Source: Cognaticolwellia beringensis
Lineage (GTDB): Bacteria > Pseudomonadota > Gammaproteobacteria > Enterobacterales > Alteromonadaceae
Direction: 5' to 3'
Length of the DNA stretch: 64,000 bases
Assembly: GCF_002076895.1 (NCBI RefSeq)
Contig: NZ_CP020465.1
Coordinates: 806,001-870,000, forward strand
Notes under the pieces: model-generated
Database searches by the model: none
What the model was told of the DNA's origin: nothing
Seen by the model: only the letters and a program-made list of their open reading frames with translations
Made by a program: the position numbers and the translations under genes
In this document: piece by piece, positions 3,146 to 11,322 of the stretch
Layout of the letters: every line of letters starts with the position of its first letter
How positions within the stretch are numbered: position 1 is the stretch's first letter

Positions 3146-4462
3146 TTAATGGTTATGTGCGTCAAAACTGCCTTTGGCAATTTCCGCGGCAACATAAAAA
3201 GCGCCAGTTGTGACAATTTTAGAGCCTGCTGGTAAACCATGAATTTCACGCAATTTTCCCAGTTGTCGTCCCAATTCAATTTCGACGCCTTTAAATTCAC
3301 CATTTTCTTCAACAAAGACCATCCAATCACCATCACTACCACGCATTAATGCTTCTTCAGGCACAGTCAGAACTTTTTTGTCTGTTTCAAGGGCAAAATA
3401 GATATCAGCAAATAAACCGGGATGAAGCTTATGACCGTCATTTTGAACCTGTAAACGTATAATGCGTGTGCGAGTTACTGGGTCTATGGTATGAGCTTTT
3501 TGAGTGACCGTAGCTATGTATGTATTGTTACCTACATTTACTTGCGCCTTTGAATTTTCAGGTAAGTCCAATTCCATTGATGGAGCTAAACGTGCTTCAA
3601 CCCATAACGTATCCTCATCAGCCAGATCAAATAAAGTACCGCCGGATTCTATGCGTTGTCCTTGACGGAAATTATCAGATAATACCGCGCCAGAAGTCTC
3701 TGCGTTTAGGGTGTATTGTCCAAGTTTTTTAGTGTTGGTAGCCAAAGAGGTAATAGCGTCAGCAGATAAGCCAAACGCATATAATCGTCCTAAGTCAGCC
3801 TCAAAATCGGTCTGAGCTTCTATAAAGCGTTTATCACCTACCGCTTTTCGACCAAGTTTTTGAACCCTTTTCCATTCTGAATCAGCGAGCCTATAGCTGG
3901 CTTGTGCTTCAGCCATTGACTCACTAAATAGGGTGACTAACGGTTGATTGATTTCAACATGATCACCTAAAGCAACATGGCGTTTTAGTATCACCGAATC
4001 TACTCTTGGCGAGACTAAATAACTGGTATAGTCATTCGCTTTTATCTCTCCTTGAGCATAAATACTGTAAGCCATCGCCTGAGGCTCTAGTACGGTTATG
4101 TTAATTTCAGCTAAATTTAATTGTTCCTTTGAAAGTTTAACTCCCGCACCTTCTTCTTCGTGTTCATTTTTACCTTCATGTCCATGCCCATCGTCTTTTT
4201 CTTCTTCGTGCTCATTTTTACCTTCATGTCCATGCCCATCGTCTTTTTCTTCTTCGTGCTCATTTTTACCTTCATGCCCATGCCCGTCGTTTTTTTCTTC
4301 TTTGTGTTCATTTTTAGCTTCATGTCCATGTCCATCATCTTTTTCTTCAACATGCTTTTCGGCTTTTTCAGATGATTGAACATTTGCAAATGTCGCAGTA
4401 GTTATGGTTGTTATCCCACAAAAAAGTGCGGCCAGCGTTATTAATTTAATTTGCTTATTCAT
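3146..4462 (-). CDS. czcB: CzcB-type membrane fusion protein with His-rich repeats
   Basis: Periplasmic adaptor that links the RND pump at 1-3119 to the outer-membrane channel. I chose the ATG at 4462 because GGAA lies 7 bp upstream; an in-frame ATG at 4486 adds 8 residues and has no ribosome site. Residues 1-26 are a signal peptide ending TATFA. Residues 39-102 are four copies of a 16-residue unit of the type EEKDDGHGHEGKNEHE, rich in His, Asp and Glu. After this come the lipoyl half, an alpha-hairpin (about residues 185-260, including ESMAEAQASYRLADSEWKR), the second lipoyl half and the beta-barrel (VTVPEEALMRG). A His-rich N-terminal segment is known in metal adaptors and is thought to buffer metal. 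The length of 438 residues is normal for the family. Confidence 0.93.
   Translation of the reverse strand: MNKQIKLITLAALFCGITTITTATFANVQSSEKAEKHVEEKDDGHGHEAKNEHKEEKNDGHGHEGKNEHEEEKDDGHGHEGKNEHEEEKDDGHGHEGKNEHEEEGAGVKLSKEQLNLAEINITVLEPQAMAYSIYAQGEIKANDYTSYLVSPRVDSVILKRHVALGDHVEINQPLVTLFSESMAEAQASYRLADSEWKRVQKLGRKAVGDKRFIEAQTDFEADLGRLYAFGLSADAITSLATNTKKLGQYTLNAETSGAVLSDNFRQGQRIESGGTLFDLADEDTLWVEARLAPSMELDLPENSKAQVNVGNNTYIATVTQKAHTIDPVTRTRIIRLQVQNDGHKLHPGLFADIYFALETDKKVLTVPEEALMRGSDGDWMVFVEENGEFKGVEIELGRQLGKLREIHGLPAGSKIVTTGAFYVAAEIAKGSFDAHNH
4157..4348 (-). repeat. Four in-frame 48-bp tandem repeats inside czcB
   Basis: Four adjacent copies of 48 bp, each coding 16 residues with two GHGH/NEH metal-ligand clusters. 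The copies differ at only a few positions (AKNEHK, KNDGHGHEG, KDDGHGHEG). The near identity at DNA level suggests recent expansion by slippage or unequal exchange, and copy number may vary between strains. Confidence 0.95.
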
Positions 4463-4522
4463 ATATTTTTTCCAAAATTGGTTCATTGACTATTATTTGA
4501 TTCTTGATAATGCCTTTAATAT

Positions 4523-5870: not shown

Positions 5871-6218
5871 TTAACTTATAGGGGGGATTATTGGGTTATC
5901 GTGAGGAGGGCTTGAATATTGAAATAAATACCCATACTGATGTCCTATTTGATTTGGACGCTCAGTAAAGGTTTGAGCTTGAACGAGCCACTGAATATGA
6001 GATCCATGGCAATGACCACAATGATGACAATCTTTAGCATTATGTTCATTGTCTGTTGGTAATTCTTTGTCAGCTACAAAGCGATCAGATTCATGTGAAT
6101 GTTCAATTTGGATATGCTGAATATCAATTTCATGAATTTCTTGTGAATTTGCAATAGCTACAAATGATTGTAATACAATCAAAATGACTAAAGTAAAATT
6201 CAAAAGCACATTTTTCAC
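5871..6218 (-). CDS. Small exported Cys/His protein at the head of the czc operon
   Basis: I do not recognise the family. The open frame reaches 6296, but that would begin almost at the -10 box. The better start is GTG at 6218, with AAAGG 8 bp upstream. It gives a clean signal peptide (VKNVLLNFTLVILIVLQSF..AIANS) and a 115-residue product. The mature part is His/Asp/Glu-rich, then carries a metal-ligand cluster CHHCGHCHGSH, and ends in Pro-rich SSPPHDNPIIPPIS. A protein of the same plan lies before the second czcC (11319). The position, export and Cys/His cluster suggest a periplasmic metal-binding or metal-sensing accessory; this is inference. Confidence 0.75.
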   Translation of the reverse strand: MKNVLLNFTLVILIVLQSFVAIANSQEIHEIDIQHIQIEHSHESDRFVADKELPTDNEHNAKDCHHCGHCHGSHIQWLVQAQTFTERPNQIGHQYGYLFQYSSPPHDNPIIPPIS

Positions 6219-6308
6219 AGCAAAGACCTTTAAGGATACATAACACAAATTTATTGAGAAGGTATTTAGAAAATAATTAAATTTAAGAATATTCAAAATA
6301 ACCGCACA

Positions 6309-6339
6309 ACAATAACATCTATAGTAGCTATAGAGTCAA
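6309..6339 (-). promoter_or_regulatory. MerR-type promoter/operator of the first czc operon
   Basis: On the minus strand, -35 TTGACT (6339-6334) and -10 TATTGT (6314-6309) are 19 bp apart, the long spacing that MerR regulators untwist. The spacer holds the dyad CTATAG-3-CTATAG (6319-6333). It matches the form of known CadR/PbrR operators and the three other sites in this window. It drives 5871-6218 and czcCBA. Confidence 0.9.
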
Positions 6340-6388: not shown

Positions 6389-7099
6389 TTATTTAATTAG
6401 TTTTCTAATGCTTTCTACATTTTTATTGATTAGATGTCGAATGACATTTTTATATAGCCAATTTTTAATGCCAGACAAATTAGTGCCATATTTCTCATAG
6501 AATTCATCTGGGGTGTTAAAAATACCAAAGTCATCATGTATACCTTCTTTTTGAATAAAGGTATCTTTGCCTGACCATTCCACTTGTGGATCTAATAAAC
6601 ACTTTGTTGCAATACCATATCCGCAAAAATTATTTTTCACATTTTTAAACTTAGATTGAATAGATTTTAGATACGAGTCATCAATAATAAAGCCTTCTAG
6701 ATTGATCCAATTATCTTCAAAAAACACTTCAACCCAGCTATGAATAATGAATTCTGGAGCAAGCCACATAATGTAATTGGGTATAGCACCTTTTTGTAAG
6801 CTTTTCTCAATAGTAAATCCGTGAAATCTACAAGGAATATCCAATGCTCTTAATAAAGCCATTAAAAGAGTTCCTTTAGTATTGCATTGACCATACCCTT
6901 CAGCTAAAACAAAGCTCGCACTTATATCATCACGATTGTTATATCCAAACTTTATTTCATCTTTAACAAAACTGTAAGCAGCCCCTATTTTTTCAAAATC
7001 ATCAAGAGAATTCCAGCCTCTATTTTTGATCAAGTCTGTAATTAGAGGGGTATCGTAATCTAGAATATTCGATTTCTTTAAATATATATTTGATTTCAT
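6389..7099 (-). CDS. Transglutaminase-like cysteine protease-fold protein
   Basis: The 236-residue protein has no signal peptide and so is probably cytoplasmic. The transglutaminase-core signature is visible: GYGQCNTKGTLLMALLRAL (Cys72), then IIHSWVEVFFEDNWINLEG with His120. Where the family usually has the catalytic Asp, Glu135 is found, so the triad is Cys-His-Glu. The substrate cannot be told from sequence. The gene has its own MerR-type promoter about 107 bp upstream (7206-7236). The 3' end of a second copy survives at 7292-7358, so the gene was once tandemly duplicated with its promoter. A role in metal stress is inferred from this regulation only. Confidence 0.8.
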   Translation of the reverse strand: MKSNIYLKKSNILDYDTPLITDLIKNRGWNSLDDFEKIGAAYSFVKDEIKFGYNNRDDISASFVLAEGYGQCNTKGTLLMALLRALDIPCRFHGFTIEKSLQKGAIPNYIMWLAPEFIIHSWVEVFFEDNWINLEGFIIDDSYLKSIQSKFKNVKNNFCGYGIATKCLLDPQVEWSGKDTFIQKEGIHDDFGIFNTPDEFYEKYGTNLSGIKNWLYKNVIRHLINKNVESIRKLIK

Positions 7100-7205: not shown

Positions 7206-7236
7206 ACTATAATCTCTATAGTAACTATAGGGTCAA
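7206..7236 (-). promoter_or_regulatory. MerR-type promoter of the transglutaminase-like gene
   Basis: On the minus strand, -35 TTGACC (7236-7231) and -10 TATAGT (7211-7206) flank a 19-bp spacer holding CTATAG-3-CTATAG (7216-7230). It is the same architecture as at 6309, 7365 and 9820. The predicted leader to the ATG at 7099 is about 100 nt. Confidence 0.9.
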
Positions 7237-7364: not shown

Positions 7365-7395
7365 TTTACTCTATAGCAACTATAGGTATTACAAT
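7365..7395 (+). promoter_or_regulatory. MerR-type promoter of the FTR1 permease gene
   Basis: -35 TTTACT (7365-7370) and -10 TACAAT (7390-7395) are separated by 19 bp. The spacer contains CTATAG-CAA-CTATAG (7371-7385). It points right, towards the FTR1 gene, with a Fur box directly after the -10. Confidence 0.88.
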
Positions 7396-7410
7396 TGATA
7401 ATAATTATCA
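7396..7410 (+). promoter_or_regulatory. Fur box overlapping the start of transcription
   Basis: TGATAAT-A-ATTATCA is a perfect match to the published 7-1-7 Fur consensus TGATAATNATTATCA. It begins one base after the -10 hexamer, where bound Fur would block RNA polymerase. The FTR1 gene is therefore predicted to be repressed by Fur-iron and activated by the MerR-type regulator. Confidence 0.8.
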
Positions 7411-7439: not shown

Positions 7440-9380
7440 ATGCAATTTTGTTGGAACGTGCGATTAATAAGTCAAAAAAATATAGGAATACAATCATTAT
7501 TATGTTTAGTGTTGATGGCGATTCTTTTATTTTCGAAGTTGAGTGTAGCTTCAACGGTTGATGAGGTTGCTCAACTACGCCAGATAGCACAGTTGGCAGA
7601 ATATGTGGGGGTCGATTACGCATCAGCGGTTGATAATGGTCAAGTTATTAACGATGATGAATACCAGGAAATGCTTGAATTCTCTCAATTGATAGTTGAT
7701 AAAACGTCAAGTGATAATTATGTTATGCACTCTCTCAATGAGAAAGCATCGGCTTTACAAACCGCCATTTCAACTAAACAAAAAGTAGACACTGTCAGGC
7801 AATTTGCTTCTGAACTACGAATTTCACTATTGGCTATGATGCCTGAGTTACCTCTCCCTAAAAGATTACTGTCTAAAGACGCGACGTTTTCTTTATTTGA
7901 AAATAACTGTGCGAGTTGCCACGGTCTTTCAGGTCAAGGAAATGGTATTTTAGCATCGGGATTAGAGCCTGCTCCTACCGATTTTACCGATAAAAAACGT
8001 GCTGAAAACCGTTCACTTTTAGGCTTGTTTGACGCCATATCTAATGGGCTTGATGATACGGCCATGCCTGCATTCACACAATTAAAAGAACAGCAGAAAT
8101 GGTCCCTTGCATTTTATGTCGGAAGTTTAGCATTTCAATCATCAAGCGAATTCATCAAACCATCACAATCAATTTCATTACAAAACTGGATAAATTATAG
8201 TCCATTAAAATTATCTACAGAAACTGAGGGATTAACGAAAAATGAAATTGAAGGGTTAAGAGCCGATCCAAAATTATTGTTTACCAATCAAAGTGGTCCT
8301 TTAGCTATAACCAAAACTCAATTAGCTGCCGCAAGCATTGCGTATAAAAATGAAGAGTATGAGAAGGCCAAAACACTTGCTGTGAGTGCTTATCTAGATG
8401 GTTTTGAATTAATTGAAAATAGTTTGGATGCACGAGACAAAAATTTACGTAAAAGCATCGAAGGAAACTTGATTAAGCTTCGTCAAGTGTTAAGTAACGC
8501 ACAACAGGTTAATCAACTTGAAAGCCTTATGGAAATTACTGTGAGGCAACTCAATGACGCGGAAAAACTTCTGACAGAAACCACTTTATCAAATGAGGCT
8601 CTTTTTACTGCAAGCTTAGTTATTTTGCTAAGAGAAGGTTTAGAAGCCTTGCTGGTTGTACTGGCTTTGATAACAGTATTAATTCGAACTAAACGTCATG
8701 ATGCCTTAAAATATGTCCATTTTGGTTGGCTCAGTGCGCTACTAGCTGGTTTTGCTACTTGGGCGGTAGCCCAGTCAATGATCAATATCAGTGGTGCAAG
8801 TCGAGAAGTCATGGAAGGTATTGCTGCAATGCTTGCAGCGTTAATGTTGTTCTATGTGGGGATCTGGATGCATAGTAAAACGAATGCTGAACATTGGCAG
8901 GCATACATTCAAAAGCACATTAATACACAATTAGAAGCAGGTACACTTTGGGGATTAGCCGTGCTCTCATTTATCGCTGTTTACCGAGAGGTTTTTGAAA
9001 CGGTTTTATTCTATCAATCACTGTTAACACAAGCCTCAACGACTCAATACTCATTTGTTATCGGTGGATTTTTATTCGGGATAGCTGTGTTATCGATTAT
9101 TGCATGGGGAATGTTTAAATATTCTGTAAAATTGCCAATTGCTCGTTTCTTTTCAACAACAACATATCTCTTATTAGCACTGTCATTTATATTAATGGGA
9201 AAAGCAGTTTCAGCATTACAAGAGGCTGCCGTTATTGGAATTTCTCCATTGCCAATTACTGTAAAGGTTGATTGGATTGGTGTTGGGTCTACTTGGGAAG
9301 GCATAATGGCACAGTTAACTATATTGGTTTTATTTGTCGTCTATATGTATAGATCTAGAAAAAAACAAATAATGATTTAA
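7440..9380 (+). CDS. Cytochrome c-FTR1 family permease (PbrT/EfeU-like)
   Basis: Inner-membrane permease of the FTR1 iron/lead family fused to an N-terminal periplasmic cytochrome c region. I chose the ATG at 7440 (AAGGG 7 bp before); the in-frame ATG at 7395 overlaps the -10 box. The 646 residues show a signal peptide ending SVAS, haem site CASCH at 157-161 with a possible Met ligand in DTAMPAF, and a helical linker. The FTR1 part has about seven TM helices and both REXXE metal motifs: REGLE (398-402) and REVFE (516-520). In Cupriavidus metallidurans PbrT, of the same layout, mediates lead uptake next to pbrR. Here it lies beside a CadR/PbrR regulator. The cytochrome part may oxidise the metal before transport, which is inference. 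Confidence 0.9.
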   Translation: MQFCWNVRLISQKNIGIQSLLCLVLMAILLFSKLSVASTVDEVAQLRQIAQLAEYVGVDYASAVDNGQVINDDEYQEMLEFSQLIVDKTSSDNYVMHSLNEKASALQTAISTKQKVDTVRQFASELRISLLAMMPELPLPKRLLSKDATFSLFENNCASCHGLSGQGNGILASGLEPAPTDFTDKKRAENRSLLGLFDAISNGLDDTAMPAFTQLKEQQKWSLAFYVGSLAFQSSSEFIKPSQSISLQNWINYSPLKLSTETEGLTKNEIEGLRADPKLLFTNQSGPLAITKTQLAAASIAYKNEEYEKAKTLAVSAYLDGFELIENSLDARDKNLRKSIEGNLIKLRQVLSNAQQVNQLESLMEITVRQLNDAEKLLTETTLSNEALFTASLVILLREGLEALLVVLALITVLIRTKRHDALKYVHFGWLSALLAGFATWAVAQSMINISGASREVMEGIAAMLAALMLFYVGIWMHSKTNAEHWQAYIQKHINTQLEAGTLWGLAVLSFIAVYREVFETVLFYQSLLTQASTTQYSFVIGGFLFGIAVLSIIAWGMFKYSVKLPIARFFSTTTYLLLALSFILMGKAVSALQEAAVIGISPLPITVKVDWIGVGSTWEGIMAQLTILVLFVVYMYRSRKKQIMI

Positions 9381-9394
9381 GATCAGCATGGCAT

Positions 9395-9802
9395 CTAAAT
9401 GCTTTTTGCTACGTCACAGGTAAGTTTTTGTAAAATACCACACTGCTCAATTGTTCCACCATTTGAGCAGGTGTTACTTAAGTCATTTAACTGTTCTTTA
9501 AGGCTGTTTAGTTCATTAATACGTTGTTCAACTTGCTGGATATGACTATCGATCATCTTGTTAACTGAGTTGCATTGAATCGAGGGTGAGCTTTGTAACT
9601 CAAGCAGTTGACGAATTTCTGATAAGGTTAAATCGAGCGTTCTACATTGTTTAATAAACATCAATTGCTTAAGTGAGGATTTATTATATAAACGAAAATT
9701 TCCTTCACTTCGCTCTGGGGATTTCAAGAGTTGTTCTTTTTCATAATAACGGATCGTTTGTACTGAACAATCTGTTAATTTTGCTAGTTCGCCAATTTTC
9801 AT
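9395..9802 (-). CDS. cadR: MerR-family Cd(II)/Pb(II)-responsive regulator (CadR/PbrR)
   Basis: MerR activator predicted to bind the four CTATAG-3-CTATAG sites in the window. The start is ATG at 9802 (MKIGELAKLTDCSVQTIRYY); the open frame runs 23 residues further upstream, but that part covers the operator at 9826-9840 and is unlikely to be translated. The 135 residues show the winged HTH (1-70), the dimer coiled coil (about 80-110) and cysteines C77, C112 and C121, the positions that bind metal in CadR/PbrR proteins. Further cysteines are C12, C53 and C129. It is divergent from the CDF operon, and its 3' end meets that of the FTR1 gene with 14 bp between. Confidence 0.92.
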   Translation of the reverse strand: MKIGELAKLTDCSVQTIRYYEKEQLLKSPERSEGNFRLYNKSSLKQLMFIKQCRTLDLTLSEIRQLLELQSSPSIQCNSVNKMIDSHIQQVEQRINELNSLKEQLNDLSNTCSNGGTIEQCGILQKLTCDVAKSI

Positions 9803-9819
9803 AATATTAAATTTCTTTG

Positions 9820-9850
9820 TTGACTCTATAGTTACTATAGGCTTTATACT
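9820..9850 (+). promoter_or_regulatory. MerR-type promoter of the CDF-lspA-czc operon
   Basis: -35 TTGACT (9820-9825) and -10 TATACT (9845-9850) are separated by 19 bp, with CTATAG-TTA-CTATAG (9826-9840) in the spacer. The best hexamers of the four sites are here. It lies between cadR and the CDF gene and probably also governs cadR expression, as in other divergent MerR loci. Confidence 0.92.
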
Positions 9851-9879: not shown

Positions 9880-10779
9880 ATGTCAAATAAATGTAGTGGC
9901 CAATGTGAGTCAGTTGTTACTGATTCTAGTATTAAAGAGTTTAAAAATACTGATGCTTTTGATGGGCGTTTCACCACTGATTATAAAGTGACCCAGATGG
10001 ATTGTCCCTCTGAAGAGCGACTGATCAGGTTAGCGCTCGACGGTATTGAACCTTCTGTAGGATTAAAATTTGATATTCCTAATCGGTTAGTTAAAGTTTT
10101 TCATGATGATAATTTGGATGAAATAACTACGAAGCTTCAATCATTGAATTTAGGTGCTACGTTAGAAATAACCAGAGAAAGTTGCCGTGTTGAAGCAACC
10201 CAAGCCAAAGCATCAGCTAAAGAAAATGAAGGGAAAGAAACCATTATTCTTAAGTGGTTACTGATCATTAACGGGTTCATGTTTTTTTGTGAATTCATCG
10301 CGGGTTGGATTGCGCAATCCGCAGGGCTAATTGCTGACTCTTTAGATATGTTTGCAGATGCTGCCGTATATGGATTAGCAATATATGCGGTTGGTAAAAG
10401 TATTAAGATGAAACTCAAAGCAGCCCACATATCGGGATGGTTACAGGTTCTCCTTGCGTTAGGAGCTTTAAGTGAAGTATTAAGGCGATTTATATATGGA
10501 AGTGAACCCGTATCAAATTTAATGATGATTTTTGGTGCACTTGCGTTAATTGCCAATGTTACTTGTTTGTTTTTAATATCCGATAGTAAAGAAAATGGCG
10601 CTCATATGAAGGCTAGTTGGATTTTTTCAGCTAATGATGTTATCGCAAATGTTGGCGTTATATTAGCTGGACTACTGGTAACACTGACAGGATCTCGTTA
10701 TCCAGATCTTGTTATTGGATTAATAATTGCCCTTGTAGTATTAAACGGTGCTCGCCGTATTTTACAGCTTAAATATTGA
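9880..10779 (+). CDS. CDF-type cation efflux transporter with HMA-like N-terminus
   Basis: Predicted inner-membrane metal(II)/proton antiporter of 299 residues. The N-terminus has C5xxxC9, then an HMA-like fold around TDYKVTQMDCPSEE (Cys42; a single Cys, not CxxC). Six TM helices follow from about residue 120. TM2 carries DMFAD, which fits the DxxxD half of the CDF metal site. TM5 reads SANDVIANVG, so the usual HxxxD half has lost its His. The protein ends straight after TM6 and lacks the C-terminal cytoplasmic dimer domain. Its place behind the MerR promoter and before lspA matches the pbr-type operons, where a P-type ATPase often stands instead. Substrate lead, cadmium or zinc is inferred. 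Confidence 0.85.
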   Translation: MSNKCSGQCESVVTDSSIKEFKNTDAFDGRFTTDYKVTQMDCPSEERLIRLALDGIEPSVGLKFDIPNRLVKVFHDDNLDEITTKLQSLNLGATLEITRESCRVEATQAKASAKENEGKETIILKWLLIINGFMFFCEFIAGWIAQSAGLIADSLDMFADAAVYGLAIYAVGKSIKMKLKAAHISGWLQVLLALGALSEVLRRFIYGSEPVSNLMMIFGALALIANVTCLFLISDSKENGAHMKASWIFSANDVIANVGVILAGLLVTLTGSRYPDLVIGLIIALVVLNGARRILQLKY

Positions 10780-10791
10780 TGGGACTTATCG

Positions 10792-11322
10792 ATGATTAAA
10801 TCTGTTGATAGTATAAATATTAAAAAGAACAAGAACACATGGTATATGTTCGCTTTGAGTTTATTGATTTTAGATCAGGTGACGAAATATTTTGTTGTTT
10901 TACTACTCCCATTACATGGTTCTACAGACGTTTCATACTTTTTTAACATTGTACATTTTCGTAATGAAGGCGCAGCGTTTAGTTTGTTTGCTGATGCTGG
11001 AGGGTGGCAGCGTTATTTTTTTGCATGTGTTGCCTCAATTACATCTCTTTGGTTGATTTTTATGATTAACAAAAGCCAGTCAATGAGAGAGTTACTTGGC
11101 TTTTCATTTGTTCTAGGGGGAGCTTTAGGGAATTTAAGCGATAGGTTGCTTAGGGGAAATGTAGTCGATTTTTTAGATTTTTATTGGAAAGGTAGCCATT
11201 GGCCTGCTTTTAATTTTGCTGATGTAACAATTATTTGTGGTATTTGTTTGTTAATTTCATTAATTGCTCTGCCTAATTCTAAAGTGGTTACAATTACAGA
11301 ATATCGTGCTAGAGAGCAATGA
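10792..11322 (+). CDS. lspA: Signal peptidase II (LspA/PbrC-like)
   Basis: Inner-membrane aspartic protease that removes lipoprotein signal peptides. The 176 residues have four TM helices and the family motifs: LLILDQVTKYFV, FRNEGAAFSLF, GALGNLSDRLLRGNVVDF and AFNFADVTI. The two catalytic aspartates are in NLSDR and FNFAD. It starts 12 bp after the CDF gene and overlaps the next gene by four bases. An lspA copy inside lead operons (pbrC or pbrBC) is well known; it is probably additional to a housekeeping lspA elsewhere. Its role may be to mature metal-resistance lipoproteins, though none is evident in this operon. Confidence 0.95.
   Translation: MIKSVDSINIKKNKNTWYMFALSLLILDQVTKYFVVLLLPLHGSTDVSYFFNIVHFRNEGAAFSLFADAGGWQRYFFACVASITSLWLIFMINKSQSMRELLGFSFVLGGALGNLSDRLLRGNVVDFLDFYWKGSHWPAFNFADVTIICGICLLISLIALPNSKVVTITEYRAREQ

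Follow-up and report, generated by a model that had tools for sequence, protein, structure and literature searches.

The efeUOB operon of Escherichia coli, which encodes the FTR1-type protein EfeU, is under the control of both Fur and the stress regulator CpxAR. Another described system is the pbr operon of Cupriavidus metallidurans (plasmid pMOL30, NC_007971), in which the gene of PbrT, a protein that joins a cytochrome c domain to the FTR1 permease, lies beside that of a CadR/PbrR regulator, in a cluster that includes an lspA-like gene. The literature describes PbrT as a protein for Pb(II) uptake (accessible parts of PMC1526738 and PMC3431237), and the lead-resistance model, as set out in the available part of PMC3431237, has no role for it. 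According to the accessible sections of a proteome study (PMC11647595), C. metallidurans contains 206 copies of PbrT per cell in the control, 223 after metal shock and 847 with EDTA (in its Table 2, increases of 4.1-fold with EDTA and 1.1-fold with metal shock); the mix used for the shock held cadmium, zinc and six other metals, without lead. This response is what a promoter governed by Fur only should give, with the reservation that EDTA withholds all metals and the mix had no lead, so that lead may still induce PbrT. The start of pbrT transcription has been mapped 39 bp upstream of the gene, which may also be transcribed from the pbrR promoter within the transcript pbrRTUa (available text of PMC9045368). 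Finally, there are the CadR/ZntR-type promoters of CDF, P-type ATPase and other genes, whose signal is described in the accessible part of PMC1526738.

In the window (the whole 64-kb stretch of DNA that was analysed), a gene for a cytochrome c-FTR1 permease is preceded by a promoter that brings such a CadR-type signal together with a Fur box (Table 1). The initial annotation had proposed a MerR-type promoter followed by a perfect Fur box before the FTR1 permease, and direct reading of the sequence confirms both. It had also described the two elements as overlapping, of which only the adjacency stands: the first base of the palindrome TGATAATAATTATCA is the one directly 3' of the -10 hexamer (gap 0), so that they abut. 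As in CadR/ZntR-type promoters, the dyad lies in a spacer of 19 bp, within the 19-20 bp that characterize promoters activated by CadR and other MerR-type proteins. The -35 hexamer TTTACT is weak and corresponds to TTGACT or TTGACC in many relatives. The 7-1-7 consensus of the Fur box is TGATAATNATTATCA, against which TGATAATAATTATCA scores 14/14, and it is predicted to span about -6 to +9 of transcription, taking the start from the position of the promoter. A coding role of the palindrome, as would follow from the start chosen by the ORF program (TTG at 7395), has been ruled out by the ATG at 7440, which is the start common to the relatives. No description of a composite CadR-Fur promoter was found among the matches listed in the open-access literature, nor any paper on this promoter in the same literature searched for PbrT with Fur or Fur box; in the accessible part of PMC2448597 there is no mention of these terms, and in that of PMC12301328 'fur box' is present in the reference list only.

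Table 1. Features of the composite promoter and of the surrounding metal-efflux island (positions in the window).
Feature	Position	Strand	Basis
-35 hexamer TTTACT of CadR-type promoter	7365-7370	+	Direct sequence reading; aligned with relatives
CadR-type dyad CTATAGCAACTATAG within 19-bp spacer	7371-7385	+	Direct reading and motif scan
-10 hexamer TACAAT	7390-7395	+	Direct reading; aligned with relatives
Perfect 7-1-7 Fur palindrome TGATAATAATTATCA (predicted Fur box)	7396-7410	+	Direct reading
Cytochrome c-FTR1 permease (PbrT-like), 646 residues	7440-9380	+	PF03239 and PF00034 above cut-offs
CadR/PbrR-type MerR regulator, 135 aa, Cys 12, 53, 77, 112, 121, 129	9395-9802	-	TIGR02047 174.3 bits, cut-off 151.45
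CadR-type promoter of CDF gene (dyad match at 9826), no Fur box, 7/14	9820-9850	+	Motif scan
CDF cation-efflux protein with N-terminal extension	9880-10779	+	PF01545 58.9 bits, cut-off 26.6
Signal peptidase II-like protein (compare PbrC)	10792-11322	+	TIGR00077 129 bits, cut-off 73.95
CadR-type promoter (TTGACC, dyad 7216-7230, TATAGT), no Fur box, 6/14; faces transglutaminase-like gene	7206-7236	-	
Transglutaminase-like protein	6389-7099	-	PF01841
CadR-type promoter (dyad 6319-6333), no Fur box, 8/14; faces small His-rich protein gene	6309-6339	-	
Small His-rich protein	5871-6224	-	No family above its cut-off

The encoded protein has one CXXCH and three REXXE motifs (at 398, 455 and 516), and these motifs are kept in all three proteins compared (the window copy, its paralog in the same genome and PbrT). 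With EfeU it has the FTR1 domain and the REXXE motifs in common, and differs from it by the fused cytochrome c domain; its scores stay below the EfeU cut-offs (NF041756, 106 versus 255 bits; TIGR00145, 130 versus 303.8 bits). The second regulator differs as well, being here a metal-activated MerR-type protein predicted to act inside the spacer. Matches in the search of solved structures were confined to the cytochrome domain. The nearest named relatives of the gene belong to Colwellia and allied genera, among them Pseudocolwellia sp. AS88 (98% protein identity) and one Colwellia maritima copy (99%). Like pbrT, the gene lies beside a CadR/PbrR-type regulator gene, which directly adjoins it and is the candidate cognate regulator, and the cluster likewise has an lspA-like gene; the window protein and PbrT are 34% identical. 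The pbrT promoter has a Fur-like box too (TTACAATCATTCGCA, 10/14, p 0.04), but, unlike the window gene, no CadR dyad in the 250 bases upstream (best 13/22). The pbr operon also has a P-type ATPase where the window has the CDF protein, so this is not the pbr operon proper; a Pfam scan of 12 neighbouring proteins revealed no P-type ATPase of the pbrA type.

The island further encodes outer-membrane factors, membrane-fusion proteins and an RND pump. One of the membrane-fusion proteins (3146-4486, minus strand) contains a 48-base tandem repeat in 4.1 copies (4151-4348) that encodes a His/Asp/Glu-rich stretch near the N terminus. Exact agreement with CTATAGNNACTATAG, on one strand or both, is found for four dyads of the window (6319, 7216, 7371 and 9826), and there are weaker matches besides. 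Only the one at 7371 is followed by a Fur box; behind the others the score is 8, 6 and 7 of 14. Judged by its promoter, the transglutaminase-like gene would be under CadR control; this promoter is perfect, and further cases exist in two other loci (L152, L183).

How unusual is the palindrome? Within the window, TGATAATNATTATCA is matched exactly at 7396-7410 alone, and the whole genome (a single contig of 4,661,274 bases, of which the window covers 806001-870000) has two exact palindromes, versus 0.13 expected from the base composition of the window. For the 340-bp gap that holds the promoter, the expectation from the composition of the gap itself is about 3e-5. When up to two mismatches are allowed the genome gives 119 matches and the control reading 87; an isolated weak match is therefore of little value, and we have relied on exact and conserved sites. 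With one mismatch or none, ten distinct places in the genome fit the palindrome, and that at 3991466 lies directly before the FTR1 paralog. The other exact palindrome (G000:C1:710377-710391; L001, L124) precedes an apparent ABC-transporter ATPase gene.

The initial annotation had suggested a comparison among related genomes and named loss of the dyad as one outcome that would speak against the arrangement. No loss was seen. Of 24 orthologous loci found, nine with short matches only were set aside, and the 15 in which the start is covered (L020-L034, L034 covering the first 170 residues only) all have the CadR operator and the Fur-like box in the same place. The CadR dyad is kept with few substitutions, while the box scores 14/14 in six loci, 13 in six, 12 in L030 and L031 and 11 in L029. 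The composite promoter persists down to 59-62% protein identity. The gene order (FTR1, cadR on the opposite strand, CDF) is also the same in four loci with 59-68% identity (L029, L030, L031 and L181); in the group at 85% identity (L023, L026, L183) the FTR1 and CDF genes are together and no cadR was found between them.

A way to weigh this conservation is to compare the box with the silent sites of the gene behind it. Between the island copy and the paralog 14 of the 15 bases of the box are the same, against 48 of 153 four-fold sites (p about 1e-6), and against L031 the figures are 13/15 and 48/158 (p 1e-5). The Fur box has been preserved over distances at which silent sites are already saturated. 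With the relatives at 85% identity (14/15 versus 170 of 231 silent sites, p 0.06), the comparison alone is no proof of selection on the box. In L030 a second Fur box (17/19) precedes the composite promoter, about 170 bases before the FTR1 gene. The island copy is present twice in Colwellia maritima (L032 and L033), each time with the composite promoter; both reading frames break near codon 400 (near 6176-6254), at much the same position but with different small length changes, which could be sequence error or real decay.

The survey was extended to 394 genomes at the order level (23 with a match at E<=1e-50), 369 at the class level (46 at 1e-80) and 398 at the phylum level (29 at 1e-90), this genome counted in each, with at most three candidates scored per genome, and eight plasmid records were added (pMOL30 and seven of the 60 listed out of 92 with a long match). 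The sample is uneven, and one genome place in G583 and the second place in G1049 were left out. The resulting 136 rows gave 101 distinct promoters after removal of 35 rows (23 promoter duplicates, one with a short upstream region and 11 with the permease half only). Their CadR scores are bimodal: 18 rows reach 18-22 of 22 positions and 83 rows 16 or less. Among these 83 promoters without the operator 56 pass and 27 fail the Fur-like test, in which one or both of two consensus motifs had to reach p<=0.05, each judged by 200 shuffles; as the better motif was taken, up to about 10% of rows may pass by chance. In the cytochrome c-FTR1 family as sampled, most promoters therefore have a Fur-like box. 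Of those with the CadR operator, 13/18 have a box of at least 10 directly behind the -10, the Fur-like dyad being weak in L029 (11/14) and L181 (10/14). The remaining five (L054, L066, L109, L131 and L134) do not, so CadR control can exist without Fur.

Whether the Fur box belongs to CadR promoters in general has been assessed with the 70 distinct CadR-type promoters (at most two mismatches) in all the DNA collected. Behind the -10 of the 15 that precede FTR1 genes the Fur scores are 14 (six times), 13 (three), 12 (two), 11, 10, 9 and 6. The other 55 precede genes for CDF proteins (35), unclassified products (10), small His-rich proteins (6) and transglutaminase-like proteins (4), the last two counts each including the promoter of the window; their maximum is 10 and their mean 7.2 (rank test p 6e-8, the rows being related and hence not independent). 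Scores of at least 11/14 are thus found in 12/15 FTR1 promoters and, in contrast to the promoter of the window gene, in 0/55 of the others, so that we have rejected the idea that CadR promoters in general include a Fur box. The Fur box goes with the permease gene and the CadR operator with the island. Taken together, these comparisons support the composite promoter as a genuine and conserved feature that is peculiar to the FTR1 gene. Eight of the loci collected (L154-L159, L162 and L163) have a variant operator (CTATAC with GTATAG or ATATAG), which is possibly read by another MerR-type protein; of its six distinct instances, five precede CDF genes.

The paralog (3991581-3993458) is 61% identical to the island copy, and its Fur box also lies directly behind the -10 (TAGAAT, 17 bp from CTTACA). 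There is no CadR dyad in its promoter and no cadR-CDF unit alongside, the MerR-type match about 3 kb away being 25% identical. In the register of the island copy, this promoter nevertheless agrees with 14 of 22 CadR positions, versus 11 or less in 40 other Fur-only promoters, and looks like one with a decayed CadR operator. In the tree of the 101 proteins the 13 CadR-plus-Fur rows all belong to a single starred clade of 21 rows; the outermost of these (L194, L196, L195 and L048) are Fur-only, and two from Pseudoalteromonas do not pass the Fur test. Three further changes elsewhere are needed for the five rows that have CadR without Fur, and the minimum number of changes in CadR state is five. 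A careful tree of 27 rows kept the clade (100/100) and mildly rejected the 13 CadR rows held together against the rest (p-AU 0.037). That value fits a loss of the operator in the paralog, perhaps also in Pseudoalteromonas; the inner order is unsure, as this tree gives a long-branch warning. Rooting by the outgroup suggests that Fur control is older and that the CadR operator was added later.

As to which protein would read the box, the boxes of the Fur family resemble one another, and a reader of the Zur or PerR type could for that reason be imagined. A single FUR-family gene was found in the genome (eight candidates scored), and it is a Fur by NF006999 (263.2 bits, cut-off 146) and far below the cut-off of the Zur profile (29.5 bits versus 167). 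We have discarded these readers, and consider that any other member of the family using the palindrome is extremely improbable. PF02421 gave 11 matches in the same genome, none of them a clear FeoB. The best matches (63 and 59 bits) come from frames of 503 and 308 residues; the only long frame (895 residues, 26.3 bits) reads, by eye, as the translation factor IF-2. With matches this weak, inorganic iron may enter this bacterium mainly through the FTR1 proteins, FeoB being the only family searched in this respect.

The sequence logic of the composite promoter is well supported; binding by Fur and CadR, AND logic and iron as the substrate are inferred. In one marine gammaproteobacterial branch the FTR1 promoter has, in addition, a CadR operator within a spacer of 19 bp, in most cases beside a cadR-CDF unit, and has kept the Fur box immediately after the -10. 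As long as there is no toxic divalent metal, the promoter would be held closed by apo-CadR and by its over-long spacer; on binding Cd, Pb or Zn, CadR would untwist it, and iron-loaded Fur on 7396-7410 would block RNA polymerase at the start. The FTR1 gene would then be on only when a toxic metal is present and iron is low. In Bacillus cereus, eight metals mixed, not singly, lead to a Fur-type iron starvation response (accessible part of PMC9938188). Metal stress would starve the cells of usable iron, and the permease would restore iron import beside the efflux proteins, while the iron-only paralog would serve ordinary iron starvation. An iron-permease promoter provided with a CadR operator is, in our opinion, probably such an AND gate for toxic metal and low iron, and its product an iron-rescue arm, not a lead importer.

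The initial annotation had asked whether the protein carries iron, lead or both, and iron is the metal that we favour, from the Fur-like boxes of the family, the REXXE motifs, the lack of a clear FeoB and the response of PbrT to EDTA. The older model of PbrT (uptake, re-export and precipitation) would make the permease an importer of lead or cadmium, with CadR as its real control and a Fur box that limits mistaken uptake of iron. The neighbourhood does resemble pbr-type islands (cadR, the signal peptidase II-like gene), PbrT has been named accordingly (parts of PMC1526738 and PMC3431237) and the metal mix of the proteome study was without lead (PMC11647595, in part). Nonetheless, Fur-like boxes in 56 of the 83 sampled FTR1 promoters that have no CadR operator, and copies of PbrT that increase under EDTA and not under a mix that holds cadmium (same part of PMC11647595), make an importer unlikely. 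The conserved pair of promoter elements suggests a permease that supplies iron under metal poisoning.

The logic itself could be different. If release of Fur alone gave useful transcription, with CadR adding to it or outcompeting Fur, control would be OR-like or competitive (the initial annotation had mentioned competing signals), and the paralog indeed has the same box on a CadR-free promoter. The island copy, on the contrary, keeps the 19-bp spacer and the weak -35, and a sigma-70 scan with 16-18 bp spacing found no promoter ending at the -10 at 7390-7395, so that this logic appears decidedly unlikely to us. The Fur box could also be an inherited remnant devoid of function, with the gene under CadR alone, as might be thought from the five CadR-type FTR1 promoters in which CadR alone seems to suffice and from the probable antiquity of the box in the FTR1 family. 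It is hard to reconcile with a box of 13 or 14 of 14 in all nine close rows (12/14 in L030 and L031), and with 13-14 of its 15 bases being the same between genes whose silent sites are saturated, and we give this explanation little credit.

The AND gate, if true, would turn a puzzling importer within an efflux island into a sensible partner, an iron permease brought into metal islands to make up for the iron shortage that metal stress causes. More tentatively, and with some doubt on our side, the FTR1 proteins of heavy-metal islands, PbrT included, might in general be permeases for iron rescue, which compensate when toxic metals starve the cell of iron; the Colwellia branch would have made of this a conserved AND gate, with the MerR-type activator placed within the spacer and Fur immediately after the -10, Fur would have been replaced by CadR altogether in other branches, and the paralog of this genome would have dropped the CadR operator again. 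The two-signal promoter makes the question of lead or iron, posed for PbrT, directly testable, and a natural logic gate for two metals would be useful for studies of MerR-type activation and Fur repression, as well as for sensors.
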